A stretch of 64,000 nucleotides of DNA from contig JABCZO010000006.1 in the NCBI GenBank assembly GCA_013289615.1, positions 1-64,000 on the forward strand. Direction: 5' to 3'. How positions within the stretch are numbered: the first letter of the stretch is position 1; the number at the start of each line of letters is the position of its first letter. The notes beneath the pieces were generated by a model that ran no database searches, was not told the DNA's origin, and saw nothing but the letters and a program-made list of their open reading frames with translations. The DNA is from Gammaproteobacteria bacterium. Lineage in GTDB: Bacteria > Pseudomonadota > Gammaproteobacteria > Steroidobacterales > Steroidobacteraceae. Positions 9,120 to 46,117 of the stretch are shown in pieces. The translations under genes were made by a program, and so were the position numbers.

Positions 9120-9155
9120 AGCCCCGACGGTCACCGACCGTTCGGGGCTTTTTTT
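9120..9155 (+). terminator. Rho-independent terminator after the lipoprotein gene
   Basis: The stem AGCCCCGACGGTC pairs with GACCG-T-TCGGGGCT around a 3-base loop, with one bulged T, and is followed by seven T residues. It lies 22 bases after the stop codon. Confidence 0.9.
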
Positions 9156-9305
9156 CTGCATGCATCAGCAACATAGGCGCAATGGCAGCGCTCGAAACCA
9201 CTTCCGGTCCAATGTCGATGGGCAAGTCCGGGCAACCGGACCACGCGCTTTGATATTCTCGCACCTTCGATGCTGCATCCAACCTGGATGTTGGTCAGGT
9301 AGAAC

Positions 9306-10322
9306 GTGGCTAAATGCCGTATCGGACCCCACGCTGGTGCGCAATGCGTTGCCGGGCTGCTGCTGCTCGCGCTTTCGAGCTCTAACTGCCCACAGGCCGC
9401 AGATTCACCGCTATTGGATGTCGAATCAAGGATTTCATTGGGCCATGTCCGTGGCAGAATCGATCACCTCGCGATCGACCTGAAGCGCCAAAGGCTGTAT
9501 GTCGCTGAGCTTGGCAACGATACCGTGGCACTGGTCGATCTGCAGGATCGCTCACTGGTTCGTAGGCTGACCGGATTGCGCGAGCCGCAGGGGGTCGGCT
9601 ATGAGCCATCGACAGATACCCTGTATGTGGCCAACGCGGCAGACGGCTCGGTACGTCTGTATCAGGGTGCAGACCTCACGCCGATCGGGCAGATCGCGCT
9701 CGGCGAGGACGCGGATAACATCCGCGTCGACGCTGCTGCCGGCCGCGTGTTCGTCGGATACGGCAATGGAGCTCTGGCGGTGATCGATGCCAGGAGCCGG
9801 ATCAGAATAGCGGACATTCCATTGAAAGCGCATCCGGAGAGCTTCCAGCTCGAGCGCGCGGGCCAGCATATCTTCGTCAATGTCCCCGATGCGCAGGAAA
9901 TTGCACTGGTGGACCGCTCGACCAACCGGCAGATCGCGCGCTGGCCGACACGCGACCTGGGTGCAAACTTTCCGATGGCGCTCGACGAGAATGGCCGCGT
10001 GCTGGCAGTATTCCGGCACCCTGCCAGGTTAGGGGTGTTCAGCGCGGCGAACGGTACGGCGCTGGGCGTCCTCGAGACCTGTAGCGACGCTGATGATGTC
10101 TTTGTCGACTCCAAGCGGCATCGCGCTTACGTGAGCTGCGGCGAGGGGTACGTGGATGTATTCGCGGAGCGGGGCGACGGCTACGCACGGATGGGGCATG
10201 TCGCAACAGTCAGTGGTGCGAGGACGGCGCTATTCGTGCCCGAGATCGACCGGCTGCTGCTCGCGGTGCGTGCAACCCTGACCGCCCCCGCGTCCATCTG
10301 GGTACTCAAGCCGGCATCATGA
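9306..10322 (+). CDS. Secreted YncE-like beta-propeller protein
   Basis: Periplasmic or secreted protein of 338 residues. The GTG start gives a basic N-terminus and a hydrophobic signal segment (VAGLLLLALSSS). The remainder consists of repeated beta-propeller blades of the YVTN/YncE type, for example LYVAELGNDTVALVDL and LYVANAADGSVRLY, each about 40 residues. No catalytic residues can be assigned. Such proteins often act as binding scaffolds, but I cannot name a ligand. It lies 150 bases after a terminator, so it has its own promoter, and precedes the DUF1993 gene by about 100 bases. Confidence 0.7.
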   Translation: MAKCRIGPHAGAQCVAGLLLLALSSSNCPQAADSPLLDVESRISLGHVRGRIDHLAIDLKRQRLYVAELGNDTVALVDLQDRSLVRRLTGLREPQGVGYEPSTDTLYVANAADGSVRLYQGADLTPIGQIALGEDADNIRVDAAAGRVFVGYGNGALAVIDARSRIRIADIPLKAHPESFQLERAGQHIFVNVPDAQEIALVDRSTNRQIARWPTRDLGANFPMALDENGRVLAVFRHPARLGVFSAANGTALGVLETCSDADDVFVDSKRHRAYVSCGEGYVDVFAERGDGYARMGHVATVSGARTALFVPEIDRLLLAVRATLTAPASIWVLKPAS

Positions 10323-10422
10323 ACGGCCCGGCAACAACGATAGCTGCTGAACATTCGCTGGCGCTCAGCCCCTTGCTGCCATACCTTCCCTCGCTCAACT
10401 GTACAGCCCTATGAGGTGCGCC

Positions 10423-10944
10423 ATGGCTTTCTCGCTCTACGCCGCTACCATTCCGAGCTTTCAACAGATCCTGGGGGCCGTTTCCGGCCTGCTCGACAAA
10501 GCGGAAACCTTTTGCGCGCAGAAAGGCATCGCGCCGCAGGAGCTCATTCAGGCTCGGCTCGCCGCGGACATGTTTCCCCTCGCCTATCAGATCAAGTCCA
10601 CGACCGTCCACTCCCTCGGCGCCATCGAGGGCGTTCGTAAGGGGGTCTTCTCACCCGACACAACAGCGCCCCCCGAGACGTTTGCCGCCCTCAAGGCGCG
10701 GATCGCCGCGACACTGACCGCGCTGGAGAAGATCGACAGCGCGGAGATCGATGGTTTTCTCGGCCGCGACGTGCGCTTTGCCTTCGGCAACAATTATCGA
10801 GATTACACCGCTGAGGACTTCCTGCTCTCCTTCTCGCTGCCCAACTTCTACTTTCACGCCTCCACGGCCTACGACATTCTTCGCTGGAAGGGCATGCCCA
10901 TCGGCAAACGCGACTACATGGGCAAAACCCGTACGAAGAAGTGA
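10423..10944 (+). CDS. DUF1993 family protein
   Basis: Cytoplasmic protein of 173 residues. It opens with MAFSLYAATIPSFQQIL and contains VHSLGAIEGVR and FLLSFSLPNFYFHASTAYDILR, the characteristic arrangement of DUF1993, a helical-bundle family related to DinB-like proteins with unknown function. I prefer the ATG at 10423 because GAGGTG lies immediately upstream; the ATG at 10411 overlaps that site. It follows the beta-propeller gene on the same strand and converges with the desaturase gene (49-base gap). Confidence 0.8.
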   Translation: MAFSLYAATIPSFQQILGAVSGLLDKAETFCAQKGIAPQELIQARLAADMFPLAYQIKSTTVHSLGAIEGVRKGVFSPDTTAPPETFAALKARIAATLTALEKIDSAEIDGFLGRDVRFAFGNNYRDYTAEDFLLSFSLPNFYFHASTAYDILRWKGMPIGKRDYMGKTRTKK

Positions 10945-10992
10945 CTGCCAGCGTCGCAAATACCTGGCTTTCGCCCAATGTTCGGCGCGGCT

Positions 10993-12027
10993 CTATGAGC
11001 TCGGCAGCGGCCGCGTTACCTGCCAGCGCGGATCCCTGCGCTGGCGCGCCACTGCCGGGATGATTTCCCGGTATGCCGCCCAGCAGCTCGGGTATGGCGG
11101 CGGGCAGTCGGCTTTGACCAGCTCATGCAGCTGCGGCAAGGCGTGGTAGGGCACCATCGGGAACATGTGGTGTTCCAGGTGATAATTCATATTCCAGTAT
11201 AGAAATCGGAACAGCGGATTCATGTAGACCGTGCGGCTGTTGAGCCGATAATCGAGCGCGTCCTCGGCGAGGCCTGCATGTTGGGTCAGACTGAAGAACA
11301 GCAGTAAGCAACCACCGTAGATCGTCGGCAGTCCAACGAGCATCGCAGGCAGCAGCGAGCGGGTAACCAGGCAGGTGGCGCCGATGGCTGCGAGCAGTGC
11401 CAGCCAGCCTCGAGCCACCCACGGCACCTTCCAGCGTTCCCGGTTGGGGATGAAGGTACACTCCTCGGGGGTCAGACGCCCCGATGCATGCACGGCCAAT
11501 CTGCGCAGCGTGGTCGCGGTCGACTCGAGCGCCAGCAGATTGAGGGCGAGGTTCAGGAGCTTGGGCGGACGCGGCACGACGATCTCCGGATCGCGCCCGA
11601 CGATGAGCGTGTCGGTGTGATGGCGGGTATGACTCCATCGCCATACGGTGGGCTCTCTGAGGAGCATGAAGCTGGCGATCTGGTAGACGGTTTCGTTGAG
11701 CCAGCGCGTCTTGAATGCAGTACGGTGCCCGGTTTCGTGCCACCGACTATCGGCTGAGGACCCGTACAGGATCCCGTACACAATGAAGAACGGTGCGGCG
11801 GCCCAGCTACCCCAGAAATGGACACCCAGAGCCCCGCTGATCGCGAGCGCGCCAAGCCAGATCGCTGTGTCGCGCATCGCCGGCCCATCGCGCCGCTGCA
11901 TCAGCAGTCTCAGTTGCCCGCTGCCGATCGCGCAGGTATAGCGGCGTGCTTGCGCGAGTCCGCTCTGCTCCGCAAGCCTGGTCTCATTGCCGACCAGGCT
12001 GTAGTCCCTCGAAACGACCGCAACCAC
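10993..12027 (-). CDS. MocD-like membrane fatty acid desaturase
   Basis: Membrane di-iron desaturase or hydroxylase. The three histidine clusters HETGH (near residue 97), HTRHHTD (near 133) and NYHLEHH (near 285) are intact, along with QHAGL, and four hydrophobic segments are visible. The sequence SRDYSLVG at the N-terminus and LMQRRDGPAMRDT resemble the rhizopine-catabolism protein MocD and related desaturases, which usually work with a Rieske ferredoxin and reductase; neither is nearby. The GTG at 12027 is preceded by a G-rich site and matches the expected N-terminus. A GTG at 12066 would add 13 residues. It is divergent from the POT transporter gene. Confidence 0.85.
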   Translation of the reverse strand: MVAVVSRDYSLVGNETRLAEQSGLAQARRYTCAIGSGQLRLLMQRRDGPAMRDTAIWLGALAISGALGVHFWGSWAAAPFFIVYGILYGSSADSRWHETGHRTAFKTRWLNETVYQIASFMLLREPTVWRWSHTRHHTDTLIVGRDPEIVVPRPPKLLNLALNLLALESTATTLRRLAVHASGRLTPEECTFIPNRERWKVPWVARGWLALLAAIGATCLVTRSLLPAMLVGLPTIYGGCLLLFFSLTQHAGLAEDALDYRLNSRTVYMNPLFRFLYWNMNYHLEHHMFPMVPYHALPQLHELVKADCPPPYPSCWAAYREIIPAVARQRRDPRWQVTRPLPSS

Positions 12028-12211
12028 TTCCGCCCCCCGCGCTCGATGCGCCGCAAAACACGCCACGACAGCCTACTGGTACGCATCGCGCGCCTCAAGG
12101 GGGATGTGATTTGCGCGGCAAAAAGGGCTACCGGCCGCTCATGAGCGGCACCCGCCTTGTCAGCTGCCGAGTCCTTCGCGATGATGGTTTCGTCACCACC
12201 ATCCAGGACGA

Positions 12212-13672
12212 GTGCTTCATGGCCAAACCCGTGATTTCGCAGTCGTTCCTGACACGCCACCCGAAGGTATCGATGCGCGGGCCGGCGTAGTGGCGACCGA
12301 GGTCCGCGCGGCGGAGTCGCCCGCGCACGTGGGGAGCGGTCGAGAATTCCTGGGCCACCCCCGTGGACTGTTCTTTATCGGCGGCACCGAACTGTGGGAG
12401 CGCATTTCCTTCCACGGGATGCAGGCACTGCTGGTCCTCTACATGGTCGAATATCTGCTGCTTCCCGGGCACGTAGAGAGCATTGCGGGATTTGGCAGCT
12501 TCCGCGCCATCATCGAAGGGGTGACCGGGCCGCTGTCCTCGCAGGCGCTCGCCTCCCAGATCTTCGGCCTCTATGTCGGGCTCGTATACCTCATGCCCGT
12601 GTTCGGCGGAATACTCGGTGACCGGGTTCTCGGTCGGCGGCGCGCCGTGGTAATCGGTGCGCTGCTGATGACTGCGGGTCACTTCTGCATGGCATTCGAG
12701 CGATCCTTTCTGGTGGCGCTTTTGCTGCTCGTCGTGGGTGCCGGCGTGCTGCGCGGCAACCTGGCCTCGCAGCTCGGTGACCTTTATTCCAATCGCGATC
12801 ACCGTCGCGACAGCGCCTTCCAGTTTTACTACGGGATGCTAAATACCGGCGCCTTCATCGCACCGCTGATCACCGGGGTGCTCGCCCAGGCGTACGGCTG
12901 GCATTACGGCTTCGGGTTCGCCGGTGTCGGCATGCTGGCAGGCCTCGTCATCTACCTATCGGGTGCGCGGAACCTTCCGCCCGACTCGATGCGCGGTGCA
13001 ACGACGGTGCGGGTAAGGCTCAATGCGGGCGAGCGACGTGTCGTTGTCGTGATGGTGCTGATGCTGCCTCTGTTGACGCTGTTCTGGACAGCGCAATCGC
13101 AGATCTGGAATACCTATAATCTTTGGGCCCGCGATCACGTCGATATGAGCATCGGCGGATGGAGGATGCCAGTCCCGTGGTTGCAGGCCGTGGACGCGCT
13201 CGGTGTCATTGTGCTGGTGCTGCCGCTGCTGCGATTCTGGCGATGGCAGGCCGCGCGCGCCGGCGAACCCGATGACGTGACGAAACTTGCCGTGGGCTGC
13301 TTGCTGTTCGGCGCCGCGATTGCCTGGTTGGCGGGCGGACAGCTGATCGCCTACGCGACCGGCAAGGTGCCTTTGGCCTGGGCGCTCACGTATCACTTCC
13401 TCTCGGCGATTGGCTACCTTTACTTTGCGCCGGTGGTGCTGGCGCTGTTCTCCCGGGCGGCACCGGCGTCGGTCAATGCGATGATGATCGGCACCTATTA
13501 TCTGTCGATCTTTGCTGGCAGCACTATCAGCGGCCGGCTGGGCGGCCTTTATGAGCGGCTCTCCGTCGCCGAGTTCTGGCTGCTGCACGCGGCGATCGTC
13601 GCCGCGGGCGGGGTTCTGATTCTGCTGTTCGCACGGCGACTGCGGCGCGAACTGACACCGTCACCGGGCTGA
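12212..13672 (+). CDS. POT/PTR family proton-dependent peptide transporter
   Basis: Inner-membrane major-facilitator protein of 486 residues that imports di- and tripeptides with protons. The signature ExxER motif appears as GGTELWERISFHGMQ in the first helix, and GGILGDRVLGRRRAV marks the 2-3 loop. About 12-14 hydrophobic segments follow. The GTG at 12212 adds about 45 hydrophilic residues before the first helix; a GTG at 12290 is also possible. It is divergent from the desaturase gene and followed by a GST gene after 164 bases. Confidence 0.85.
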   Translation: MLHGQTRDFAVVPDTPPEGIDARAGVVATEVRAAESPAHVGSGREFLGHPRGLFFIGGTELWERISFHGMQALLVLYMVEYLLLPGHVESIAGFGSFRAIIEGVTGPLSSQALASQIFGLYVGLVYLMPVFGGILGDRVLGRRRAVVIGALLMTAGHFCMAFERSFLVALLLLVVGAGVLRGNLASQLGDLYSNRDHRRDSAFQFYYGMLNTGAFIAPLITGVLAQAYGWHYGFGFAGVGMLAGLVIYLSGARNLPPDSMRGATTVRVRLNAGERRVVVVMVLMLPLLTLFWTAQSQIWNTYNLWARDHVDMSIGGWRMPVPWLQAVDALGVIVLVLPLLRFWRWQAARAGEPDDVTKLAVGCLLFGAAIAWLAGGQLIAYATGKVPLAWALTYHFLSAIGYLYFAPVVLALFSRAAPASVNAMMIGTYYLSIFAGSTISGRLGGLYERLSVAEFWLLHAAIVAAGGVLILLFARRLRRELTPSPG

Positions 13673-13836
13673 AGCGGCCATGACTCCAGGCCCTAGGCCG
13701 GCTGGCGTCGGCGGGATAGCAAGCAGAATCATCATTACCTTGCCTCGGTGTCGGTGCGCTAGATAAGCTCGTACGGCGCATCTCTACGCAGCGTCTCGCT
13801 TGGACCTGAAGCCGTTTCTATCGAGGAACACACAAG

Positions 13837-14481
13837 ATGATCAGCATTTCCGCCTTCAAATGGGTCCCGGAGTTTGCCCGCGGCCAGGTGCGCGACCTGC
13901 GCGCACGCTGGGCGCTGGAGGAAGCCGGGCTGCCGTACAAGACCCGCCTGCTCGAGCAGGGAGATCAGGACAAGCCGGAGTACCGTGCTCTGCAGCCCTT
14001 TGGGCAGGTGCCGATCCTGGAAGAAGACGGCCTCGTGCTGTTCGAGTCGGGAGCCATCGCACTGCACATAGGCGAGCGCAGCGAGGCGCTCCTGCCGAAG
14101 CAAGCCGCGGCACGCGCACGCGCGATGCAGTGGCTGATAGCAGCGCTCAATTCTATCGAGCCGTTCGTTATGAATGTCGCATTGATCGATCTCTTCTACG
14201 CGCAGCAGGAGTGGGCGAAACTGCGACGCCCCGGTGCCGTGGAGTTCGTGCAGCGGCGTCTGTCGGCACTCTCCAGGTCGCTGGGTGAGAAGTCCTTTCT
14301 CGATGGTGATCGCTTTACGGCCGGCGATCTTATGATGACGACGGTGCTGCGCATCCTGATGCACACCGACATCGTCTCGAGCGACCCTCGCCTGGCGGCC
14401 TACATCGAGCGCTGCACCGCGCGGCCCGCTTTCAAGCGTGCGCTCGATGCGCAGATCGGAGATTTCAGGAAAACTGCATGA
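13837..14481 (+). CDS. Glutathione S-transferase family protein
   Basis: Cytosolic protein of 214 residues with the GST fold. The N-terminal thioredoxin-like domain contains GQVPILEEDGLVLFESGAIALHI, the glutathione-binding cis-proline and ES residues. The C-terminal helical domain has FLDGDRFTAGDLMMTTVLR, the conserved GxxxTxADL-like N-capping box. The substrate cannot be predicted. The ATG at 13837 is preceded by a weak GAGGAA. It is followed closely by the DUF763 gene. Confidence 0.88.
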   Translation: MISISAFKWVPEFARGQVRDLRARWALEEAGLPYKTRLLEQGDQDKPEYRALQPFGQVPILEEDGLVLFESGAIALHIGERSEALLPKQAAARARAMQWLIAALNSIEPFVMNVALIDLFYAQQEWAKLRRPGAVEFVQRRLSALSRSLGEKSFLDGDRFTAGDLMMTTVLRILMHTDIVSSDPRLAAYIERCTARPAFKRALDAQIGDFRKTA

Positions 14482-14559
14482 GGCCGATTGGCCAGCGTCG
14501 CTTCCCCCCGCTCAAGCTCTTGCGTGCACGCCGACGGCACCACGGTGCACAATGACGCG

Positions 14560-44350: not shown

Positions 44351-45067
44351 TCAGGCAGCCCAGTACACCGACACCGGCACCTGCTGTTGCCGCAACAGCG
44401 CGCGCACCGGCATTTCCGCCACCGGCCCGCTCATGGCCGCACGCTCATAGGTGGCCCACTTGCCGCTGCCGATGATCAGCAGTCCAATGCGACGCGAGTC
44501 GAGCAGCGCACTCAGATTCAGACTCATGCGCGCGTGCGGCGCCACCGGGGCGATCATGGCCACACAACCCGGCGGCTGCAGCGGATCGATCGCACTCACC
44601 AGGCCGGGCGAATCCGGAAACAACGAGGCAGTGTGGCCGTCGTCGCCCATGCCGAGCAGCATATAGTCGAATGGCCGCGGCAGCGGCGCGATCGCCGACC
44701 AGATCGAGGCGGCCGCGTCGGCCGGGTTCGCGGCGGCATTCTTCATGCCGACAAAATTTGCGTTCGCGGCCGCGTTGCGCAGCAGGTGCTCGCGTACCAA
44801 GTGCTCATTACTATCGCTGCTCGTGGTCTCGACCCAACGCTCATCGGTCAGCGTGATGCAGACGCGGCGCCAATCGAGCGGCGCGCGCGAAAGTGTGTCG
44901 AACAACGCCATCGGTGAGCGGCCGCCTGAAACCGCCAGGCTGGCGCTGCCGCCGCCGCGCATGCCGCCTTCCAGCGCCGCGACGATCTGGGCCGCCAGCG
45001 CCTCAGTCAGTGCTGCGCGCTCCGGGTAGCGACGCAAGCGGGTATCAAATCTCGCCGTGCCAGGCAT
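44351..45067 (-). CDS. pgl: 6-phosphogluconolactonase
   Basis: Hydrolyses 6-phosphogluconolactone to 6-phosphogluconate in the oxidative pentose phosphate and Entner-Doudoroff pathways. It has 238 residues of the DevB type, with LAVSGGRSPMALFDTLSR, ITLTDERWVETTSSDSNEHL, and the conserved LLGMGDDGHTASLFPDS. Its start overlaps the last codons of the zwf remnant by 23 bases, a preserved coupling of the ancestral zwf-pgl operon. The gene itself looks fully functional, although its substrate-making partner is broken here. Confidence 0.95.
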   Translation of the reverse strand: MPGTARFDTRLRRYPERAALTEALAAQIVAALEGGMRGGGSASLAVSGGRSPMALFDTLSRAPLDWRRVCITLTDERWVETTSSDSNEHLVREHLLRNAAANANFVGMKNAAANPADAAASIWSAIAPLPRPFDYMLLGMGDDGHTASLFPDSPGLVSAIDPLQPPGCVAMIAPVAPHARMSLNLSALLDSRRIGLLIIGSGKWATYERAAMSGPVAEMPVRALLRQQQVPVSVYWAA

Positions 45068-45190
45068 AGCCGTCCCGTCCGATCAGCGAGCTGGCGGCCG
45101 CCGGACCCCAGCTTCCAGCGGTATAGCTACCAGATCGAAGTCCGGCAATTGCTTCGCCGGCATGGAACGGTCCCTGGAAGTGGCAGCCAA
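45045..45190 (-). pseudogene. zwf: Glucose-6-phosphate dehydrogenase remnant (start and end only)
   Basis: Two zwf fragments are joined. From a TTG at 45190, with AGGAGA just upstream (45195-45200), the frame gives MPAKQLPDFDLVAI, the N-terminal beta strand before the nucleotide loop of Zwf. Near 45113-45125 the sequence switches to another frame, encoding TAGSWGPAAASSLIGRDGY plus AWHGEI and a stop at 45045, the characteristic Zwf C-terminus. About 440 codons are missing, including all catalytic residues. The final codons overlap pgl as in intact operons. I infer an internal deletion; misassembly is an alternative. Confidence 0.85.
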
Positions 45191-45267
45191 GCGCTCTCCT
45201 TTATATGGTCACATGCAGCCTAGTCTGTACTATATTCCCCGGCACAGCATCTGCACTTACCGTACCA

Positions 45268-45468
45268 GTGACCCAGCAAAAATCTCCGATCGCATCGCTG
45301 CACACCGGCGTTGCCGAAGTGACCGAGCGCATTCGCTCGCGCAGCCAGCACACACGGCACGACTATCTTGCGCGCATGCGGGCGGCGCGCCGGGTGGCAC
45401 TGGTGACCGACGGGCACATGTCGGGCGCATCGGGCAGCGTGCCGGCGATGCCGAATCCGGCGCACTGA
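45268..45468 (+). pseudogene. edd: Phosphogluconate dehydratase remnant (internally deleted)
   Basis: A 66-codon frame from a GTG start. Residues 1-40 (HTGVAEVTERIRSRSQHTRH, DYLARMRAA) match the start of Edd. They are fused in frame to RRVALVTDGHMSGASGSVP, which in Edd lies near residue 500-520 of about 610. The frame then ends in MPNPAH and a stop, so the last 90 or so residues are also gone. The iron-sulfur cysteines and active site are absent, so it cannot be a dehydratase. It lies divergent from the zwf remnant and 10 bases before an intact eda. Confidence 0.88.
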
Positions 45469-45478
45469 GCTGCTTCGC

Positions 45479-46117
45479 ATGAAAACCGCAAGCCCGAACA
45501 TTCGCGACATCATGGCGACATCGACCGTCATCCCGGTGCTGACCATCCAGCGTCTGGAGCATGCCGTGCCACTGGCCGAAGCGCTGGTGCGCGGCGGATT
45601 GCGGGTGCTGGAAGTCACGCTGCGCACGTCCTGCGCACTCGAAGCGATCCGGGCGATGCGCGCGGCAGTGCCCGCTGCGATCGTCGGCGGCGGAACGCTG
45701 ACACGGGCCCGTGATCTTAGCGCCTGCGCGGCGGCGGGCGCGCAATTTGGCGTGACACCGGGCCTCACCGCAGAGTTGATCGCGGCTGCGGCAAAATCAC
45801 GCTTTCCAATGTTGCCCGGCATCATGACGCCGACCGAACTAATCGCGGCACGCGCGGCAGGCTTCGACGCCTGCAAGCTGTTCCCGGCGCAGCAGGCCGG
45901 CGGTGTCGGCATGCTCAAGGCCCTGGGCGGTCCGTTTCCGGATCACGTGTTCTGCCCCACTGGCGGCGTCACCCGCGCCAACGCGGTCGAATACCTGGCA
46001 TTGCCGAACGTGCTGTGTGTCGGCGGCTCGTGGATCACCCCGGCGGCGGCCATGGCCACTGCTGACTGGACGACGATCGAGTCGCTGGCACGTGAGGCGG
46101 CCGCCTTACACAGTTGA
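45479..46117 (+). CDS. eda: 2-dehydro-3-deoxy-phosphogluconate aldolase
   Basis: Cleaves KDPG to pyruvate and glyceraldehyde 3-phosphate. It has 212 residues with an intact TIM barrel. The Schiff-base lysine lies in FDACKLFPAQQAGGVGMLKA, the active-site glutamate in GGLRVLEVTLRT, and the phosphate-binding region in FCPTGGVTRANAVEYLALPN. It begins 10 bases after the edd remnant and probably still uses the ancestral edd promoter. It also has non-ED roles (oxaloacetate decarboxylase, uronate breakdown), which could explain its survival. Confidence 0.95.
   Translation: MKTASPNIRDIMATSTVIPVLTIQRLEHAVPLAEALVRGGLRVLEVTLRTSCALEAIRAMRAAVPAAIVGGGTLTRARDLSACAAAGAQFGVTPGLTAELIAAAAKSRFPMLPGIMTPTELIAARAAGFDACKLFPAQQAGGVGMLKALGGPFPDHVFCPTGGVTRANAVEYLALPNVLCVGGSWITPAAAMATADWTTIESLAREAAALHS

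Follow-up and report, generated by a model that had tools for sequence, protein, structure and literature searches.

Truncated zwf and edd genes next to intact pgl and eda genes at a divergent Entner-Doudoroff locus

We describe a divergent zwf-pgl / edd-eda locus in which the internal parts of zwf and edd are missing and only the ends of the two genes, together with a short internal segment of edd, have been retained next to intact pgl and eda genes. The observations make it quite probable that the Entner-Doudoroff-type zwf and edd genes have been lost naturally and recently, either by three internal deletions or by one complex event. The window, which refers to the whole stretch of DNA analysed here, corresponds to bases 1 to 64,000 of contig C6 (128,530 bases) in the genome bin G000. 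The bin consists of 3.76 Mb of sequence in 74 contigs, and was scored as 82.9% complete and 2.8% contaminated.

Gene remnants at the zwf-pgl and edd-eda locus

The pgl gene (44351..45067, minus strand) encodes an intact 6-phosphogluconolactonase of 238 amino acids, which obtained a score of 173.2 bits against TIGR01198 (cut-off 124.45). Its start is overlapped by the 3' remnant of zwf (45045..45128, minus strand), identified from the translation, the alignment to the relative G004 and the TIGR00871 model. This remnant contains the final 27 codons of zwf and the stop codon, the latter of which is located inside the overlap with pgl at 45045-45047. It matched positions 460 to 484 of the 486 positions in TIGR00871 with an E-value of 0.001, a match that is weak because it is short. 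The 5' remnant of zwf (45129..45190, minus strand), as defined by the alignment to G004 and the translation, contains a TTG start codon at 45190 and the first 20 to 21 codons, and the motif AAGGAG upstream of the start codon resembles a Shine-Dalgarno sequence. These segments agree with the initial annotation, according to which zwf has kept its ribosome-binding site, its first codons and its last codons. The translation across the deletion gives a short ORF of 35 codons (45083..45190, minus strand), which begins at the TTG codon and ends with a TGA codon located 15 nucleotides ahead of the ATG codon of pgl.

The divergent 5' region shared by zwf and edd (45191..45267) has been retained, as inferred from alignments to relatives. 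A scan of the locus for promoters and terminators identified one weak sigma-70-like site in this region (45208-45236, plus strand), which is a consensus match only (9/12), and no terminator.

On the other side of this region, the edd gene is represented by three segments on the plus strand. Alignments to relatives and the translation showed that the 5' remnant (45268..45390) contains a GTG start codon at 45268 and 41 codons. It is followed by a middle island of 50 to 57 bp (45391..45447), which matches positions 501 to 520 of the 601 positions in TIGR01196, and of which the last 7 bases are common to the next segment. The 3' remnant (45448..45482), also identified by alignments to relatives, contains the last 11 to 12 codons and a TGA codon in the native frame that overlaps the ATG codon of eda (ATGA). 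The initial annotation had described edd as about 40 N-terminal codons plus a piece of 20 codons, and both of these pieces were recovered here, but the third piece had not been told apart. The translation across the edd deletions gives a short ORF of 66 codons (45268..45468, plus strand), which ends with a TGA codon 10 nucleotides ahead of the ATG codon of eda. The eda gene itself (45479..46117, plus strand) encodes an intact KDPG/KHG aldolase of 212 amino acids and scored 245.2 bits against TIGR01182 (cut-off 156.05). Hence, pgl and eda are both of full length and score above the NCBIfam cut-offs, in line with the original observation that they are undamaged.

Junctions in comparison with collinear relatives

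The nearest relative in the comparison was G004, the gammaproteobacterial MAG palsa_1209, which showed about 81% nucleotide identity over a collinear stretch of 57.6 kb. In this stretch, positions 1-57,553 of C6 are collinear with G004:C42 from position 100,243 to the end of the contig at 160,980. Contig G004:C42 corresponds to PKWJ01000014.1 of palsa_1209, and the edd genes are identical. The named matches to eda were farther off, with 64% to 66% identity, and included Steroidobacter. Both palsa_1209 and a second relative, G011, contain the same gene order and the same collinear flanks as the window, but with full-length zwf and edd genes between the matching pgl and eda genes. The comparison with close relatives thus bears out that both genes have been gutted in this small divergent locus. 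Furthermore, since G004 and G011 are intact at the same position and in the same flanks, the anatomy of the locus in the window is not due to chance.

All three of the junctions proposed initially were seen in the alignment to the collinear G004 contig. At the first junction, J1 (45128/45129), about 1345 bp of zwf is absent, with HSPs that stop at 145470 and restart at 146816 of G004:C42. At the second junction, J2 (45390/45391), about 1.41 kb of edd is absent, as seen from the correspondence of 45129-45398 to 146816-147093 and of 45391-45447 to 148501-148557 of G004:C42. The third junction, J3, is located within a 7-bp microhomology, GCCGGCG (45441-45447), and about 0.21 kb of edd is absent here in the alignments to G004 and G011. 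In total, the three segments that are absent relative to G004 amount to about 2.97 kb. The GCCGGCG motif occurs at both ends of the J3 deletion in G004. No in-register shared word was found at J1 and J2 in the comparison with G004, a relative that is 19% diverged, and clear microhomology was observed at J3 only. The longest words common to the deletion ends in G004, in any register and within at most 25 bases of the approximate ends, were 5, 7, and 7 bases.

The offset between the window and G004 shifts by about 2,988 bases at the zwf/edd locus, whereas the other net shifts were at most 226 bases. Among the net deletions in the collinear 57.6-kb stretch, the one at this locus is therefore the only large one. 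When only HSPs within 6,000 bases of the expected position were considered, 41 of the 48 ORFs picked by composition in G004 were covered at 85% or more. The other 7 ORFs consisted of 2 in a replaced segment, 1 on its edge, 3 with a coverage of 80% to 84%, and 1 long ORF across the zwf/edd locus. The replaced segment covers about 5.3 kb in the window (9154-14524), with no nucleotide match to a similarly long segment in G004, and represents an unrelated replacement. Its ORFs were named by eye, from the ORFs only, as desaturase-like, peptide-transporter-like and glutathione-S-transferase-like.

We also used the 441-base locus as a query against 217 genomes of the family, including its own, and scored three candidates per genome. 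A full match was obtained in its own genome only, and the same junctions were found in none of the others. The few matches in other genomes that extended about 10 bases to either side of a junction had a length of at most 43 bases and were taken to be chance matches.

The three junctions against the collinear relative are best explained by repeated deletion, which was among the explanations put forward at the outset. Gene loss is in itself ordinary, and the loss of a pathway by deletions that spare the downstream genes is a known process. Another explanation is that the organism carries intact zwf and edd genes, and that an assembler or a gap filler has joined short pieces over a region of missing coverage. 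We consider such an artefact unlikely. It would fit with the fragmentation of the bin into 74 contigs and with the limited decay of the remnants overall. Gap collapse also happens at the same locus in another bin, G005, in which edd is split by NN and 10 NN runs are found within 7.6 kb. However, the window contains no N at all, and the collinear 57.6-kb stretch holds no second large net deletion. Moreover, shared words of 5, 7, and 7 bases would seem too short for a k-mer collapse. The island of 50 to 57 bp is below the usual size of contigs and reads, and single reads would thus probably need to carry both J2 and J3.

The island also differs from edd homologues at one residue. It reads TDGH, with the codon CAC for histidine at 45415-45417, whereas TDGR was found in 66 of 66 edd homologues (duplicates possible). 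These were obtained from a search of 83 relative loci, in which those with an edd match of at least 400 residues were counted. The loci had mostly been chosen for carrying eda, and L042 and L058 represent one locus, with further duplicates possible. Taken together, the short island, the lack of a long shared word at the junctions, the lack of N and the altered invariant residue disfavour the misassembly that had also been suggested. In the 99 codons of the remnants, 4 amino acid changes were unique to the window versus 2 unique to G004, and in the 65 codons of the edd remnants the numbers were 4 versus 0. Because the remnants show little other decay, three separate fixed deletions would all need to be recent, although the low decay is also what an artefact would produce.

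Remaining sugar pathways and the retention of pgl and eda

A search of the bin for additional genes identified zwf homologs on C5 (461.9 bits) and C22 (427.4 bits) and a gnd homolog, gnd_rel, on C5 (402.6 bits). Both zwf genes passed the TIGR00871 cut-off, gnd_rel passed its NCBIfam cut-off, and the zwf gene on C5 is located next to gnd_rel. For pgl, there was a single match in the whole bin, located at the locus described here. With the other zwf genes, gnd and this pgl gene present, the conversion of glucose-6-phosphate to ribulose-5-phosphate via 6-phosphogluconate is still encoded. No match to TIGR01196 above the cut-off was found for edd elsewhere in the bin, an absence that is provisional at 82.9% completeness. 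Two weak matches to TIGR01196 scored best as ilvD (C24) and as a member of the dihydroxy-acid dehydratase subfamily (C4). The suggestion of a selective loss of the route from glucose-6-phosphate to KDPG thus holds for the Edd step, which is absent from the bin, but not for the preceding part, since zwf on C5 and C22 and gnd on C5 remain. As judged from the gene content, the step from 6-phosphogluconate to KDPG would be the only one missing, provisionally and subject to the 83% completeness.

We noted that G004 contains three zwf genes in addition to the one at this locus, which suggests that the redundancy of zwf probably predates the loss. The bin also encodes a PPi-type phosphofructokinase on C13. 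A further zwf gene on C72 was considered as a candidate for the missing Entner-Doudoroff-type gene and rejected, because it is an 82% to 84% identical copy of the C22 locus. Its G6PD_C score belongs to the 300-bit class, as do those of the genes on C22 and C5, and not to the 400-bit class of the genes at this locus in G004 and G011. The 3-kb contig C72 (L006, G000:C72:1-3018), which is a copy of L007 (G000:C22), is probably a contaminant contig from a related organism.

If another dehydratase of the IlvD/EDD family supplied the Edd activity, the Entner-Doudoroff route would still run and eda would keep its old job. Two genes of this family, on C24 and C4, are indeed left in the bin, and PMC9424857 describes the use of IlvD as EDD in cyanobacteria as assumed but unproven. 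The gene on C24, however, scored best as ilvD and the gene on C4 as a member of the dihydroxy-acid dehydratase subfamily, and G004 carries genes of both score classes in addition to edd. We therefore regard a substitute for Edd as very unlikely.

The two short ORFs end so close to the next start codon, 15 nucleotides for pgl and 10 nucleotides for eda, that translation may be handed on to the downstream gene. This raises the question of whether the remnants have been kept for a function, as short leaders through which pgl and eda would continue to be translated after a natural non-polar deletion under selection. Both ORFs retain their starts in addition to their stops near the next ATG codon, edd and eda are joined by an ATGA overlap in G004, and the 93 remnant codons that could be aligned to G004 include 29 synonymous differences and 8 that alter the amino acid. 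Yet most of this pattern would be a legacy of the time when the genes were functional, the island is already altered at an invariant residue, and two ORFs that happen to stop close to a downstream start are a weak coincidence. A function as leader ORFs is thus rather improbable. It is also doubtful that the locus represents a natural non-polar double knock-out shaped by selection, in which the remnants would serve as leader ORFs for pgl and eda, and eda would have a role independent of both Edd and a KDG kinase.

For the intact genes, pairwise comparisons with G004 gave dN/dS values of about 0.13 for eda and about 0.34 for pgl. Unique amino acids numbered 9 for the window and 12 for G004 in eda, and 23 for each of them in pgl. 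There is thus no excess of amino acid changes in pgl and eda, by a test that is blind to a very recent relaxation. Being the sole copy found, pgl is probably required for what is left of the pentose phosphate pathway. None of the 4 PfkB-family genes in the bin scored above the KDG-kinase cut-off, a search that covered the PfkB family only. Three of them scored above the cut-offs for ribokinase, HldE domain I and IolC, respectively, and the fourth above none, with its best score to a nucleoside kinase model. Possible substrates of Eda are 4-hydroxy-2-oxoglutarate and oxaloacetate. Activity on the former has been proposed in Synechocystis (PMC9424857).

Two other loci in the bin were noted. A second, distant eda-like match with 31% identity is located at G000:C11:74331-74813. 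Furthermore, a myo-inositol cluster with an iolD-iolC-iolB-like gene order is located at L173 (G000:C17:44889-48779), for which the order was assigned by eye and iolC alone was confirmed by the family library.

Eda without Edd in other genomes and the proposed course of the loss

Among 60 genomes, including G000, a close match to eda (E-value of 1e-40 or better) was identified in 23, of which 19 contained edd above the cut-off. Partial or distant matches to eda, such as those in G014 (at a contig end), G017, G023, and G030, were excluded from the count. The 4 genomes with eda but with no edd above the cut-off were G000, G016, G018, and G005, and the opposite pattern, edd above the cut-off with no close full match to eda, was observed in G014, G017, G023, and G040. 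Within this set, G000 fits the eda-only pattern of the Entner-Doudoroff pathway, with an intact eda gene and no edd found, although provisionally since the bin is 82.9% complete. G005 was rejected as a second case of a gutted edd gene, since 4 of its 10 NN runs (5161-5769 of L051) are located within the edd stretch and indicate a gap artefact. The NN runs at L051 (G005:C5:5000-12641) break pgl as well as edd, and thereby imitate gene gutting.

In G016, which was scored as 100% complete, zwf-pgl is divergent from eda, and the two divergent genes zwf and eda lie about 150 bases apart (L044, 6000-6260). This locus resembles the one in the window in that edd is absent between zwf and a full-length eda gene, but differs in that zwf is of full length and there is no recognisable remnant of edd. 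A similar situation is described for Pectobacterium carotovorum (PMC7814964), in which eda is present, edd is absent and the Entner-Doudoroff pathway is incomplete. As in the window, eda has been kept and edd is gone, and a close relative has both genes (PMC7814964). The difference is that edd is reported as absent in P. carotovorum (PMC7814964), whereas zwf is also broken in the window and the remnants and three junctions are still present. Furthermore, pectin breakdown is described as a source of KDPG in P. carotovorum (PMC7814964), and such a source was not found here, with no PfkB gene above the KDG-kinase cut-off. No publication on the locus itself was present among the literature matches listed, as far as their excerpts go.

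Under the deletion scenario that we favour, three internal deletions, or one complex event, would have removed the insides of zwf and edd from a divergent zwf-pgl / edd-eda locus. The zwf gene at this locus would have been redundant, with other zwf genes present in the genome. The edd gene may have been dispensable because glucose could be metabolised via glycolysis with the PPi-type phosphofructokinase and via the oxidative pentose phosphate pathway. The deletions would have been tolerated where they left the regulatory region and the beginning of the downstream gene usable, as pgl was the sole lactonase gene found and eda may still have been useful.

The locus neatly illustrates a process that is already known. 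It shows clearly, and apparently at an early stage, how one branch of the central sugar metabolism is dropped, in which the insides of the branch genes are gone and the downstream genes, which may be needed by other pathways, have kept their start regions. With the full locus in some members of the family and no edd in others, the family would be suited to studies of the role of Eda in genomes that lack Edd.
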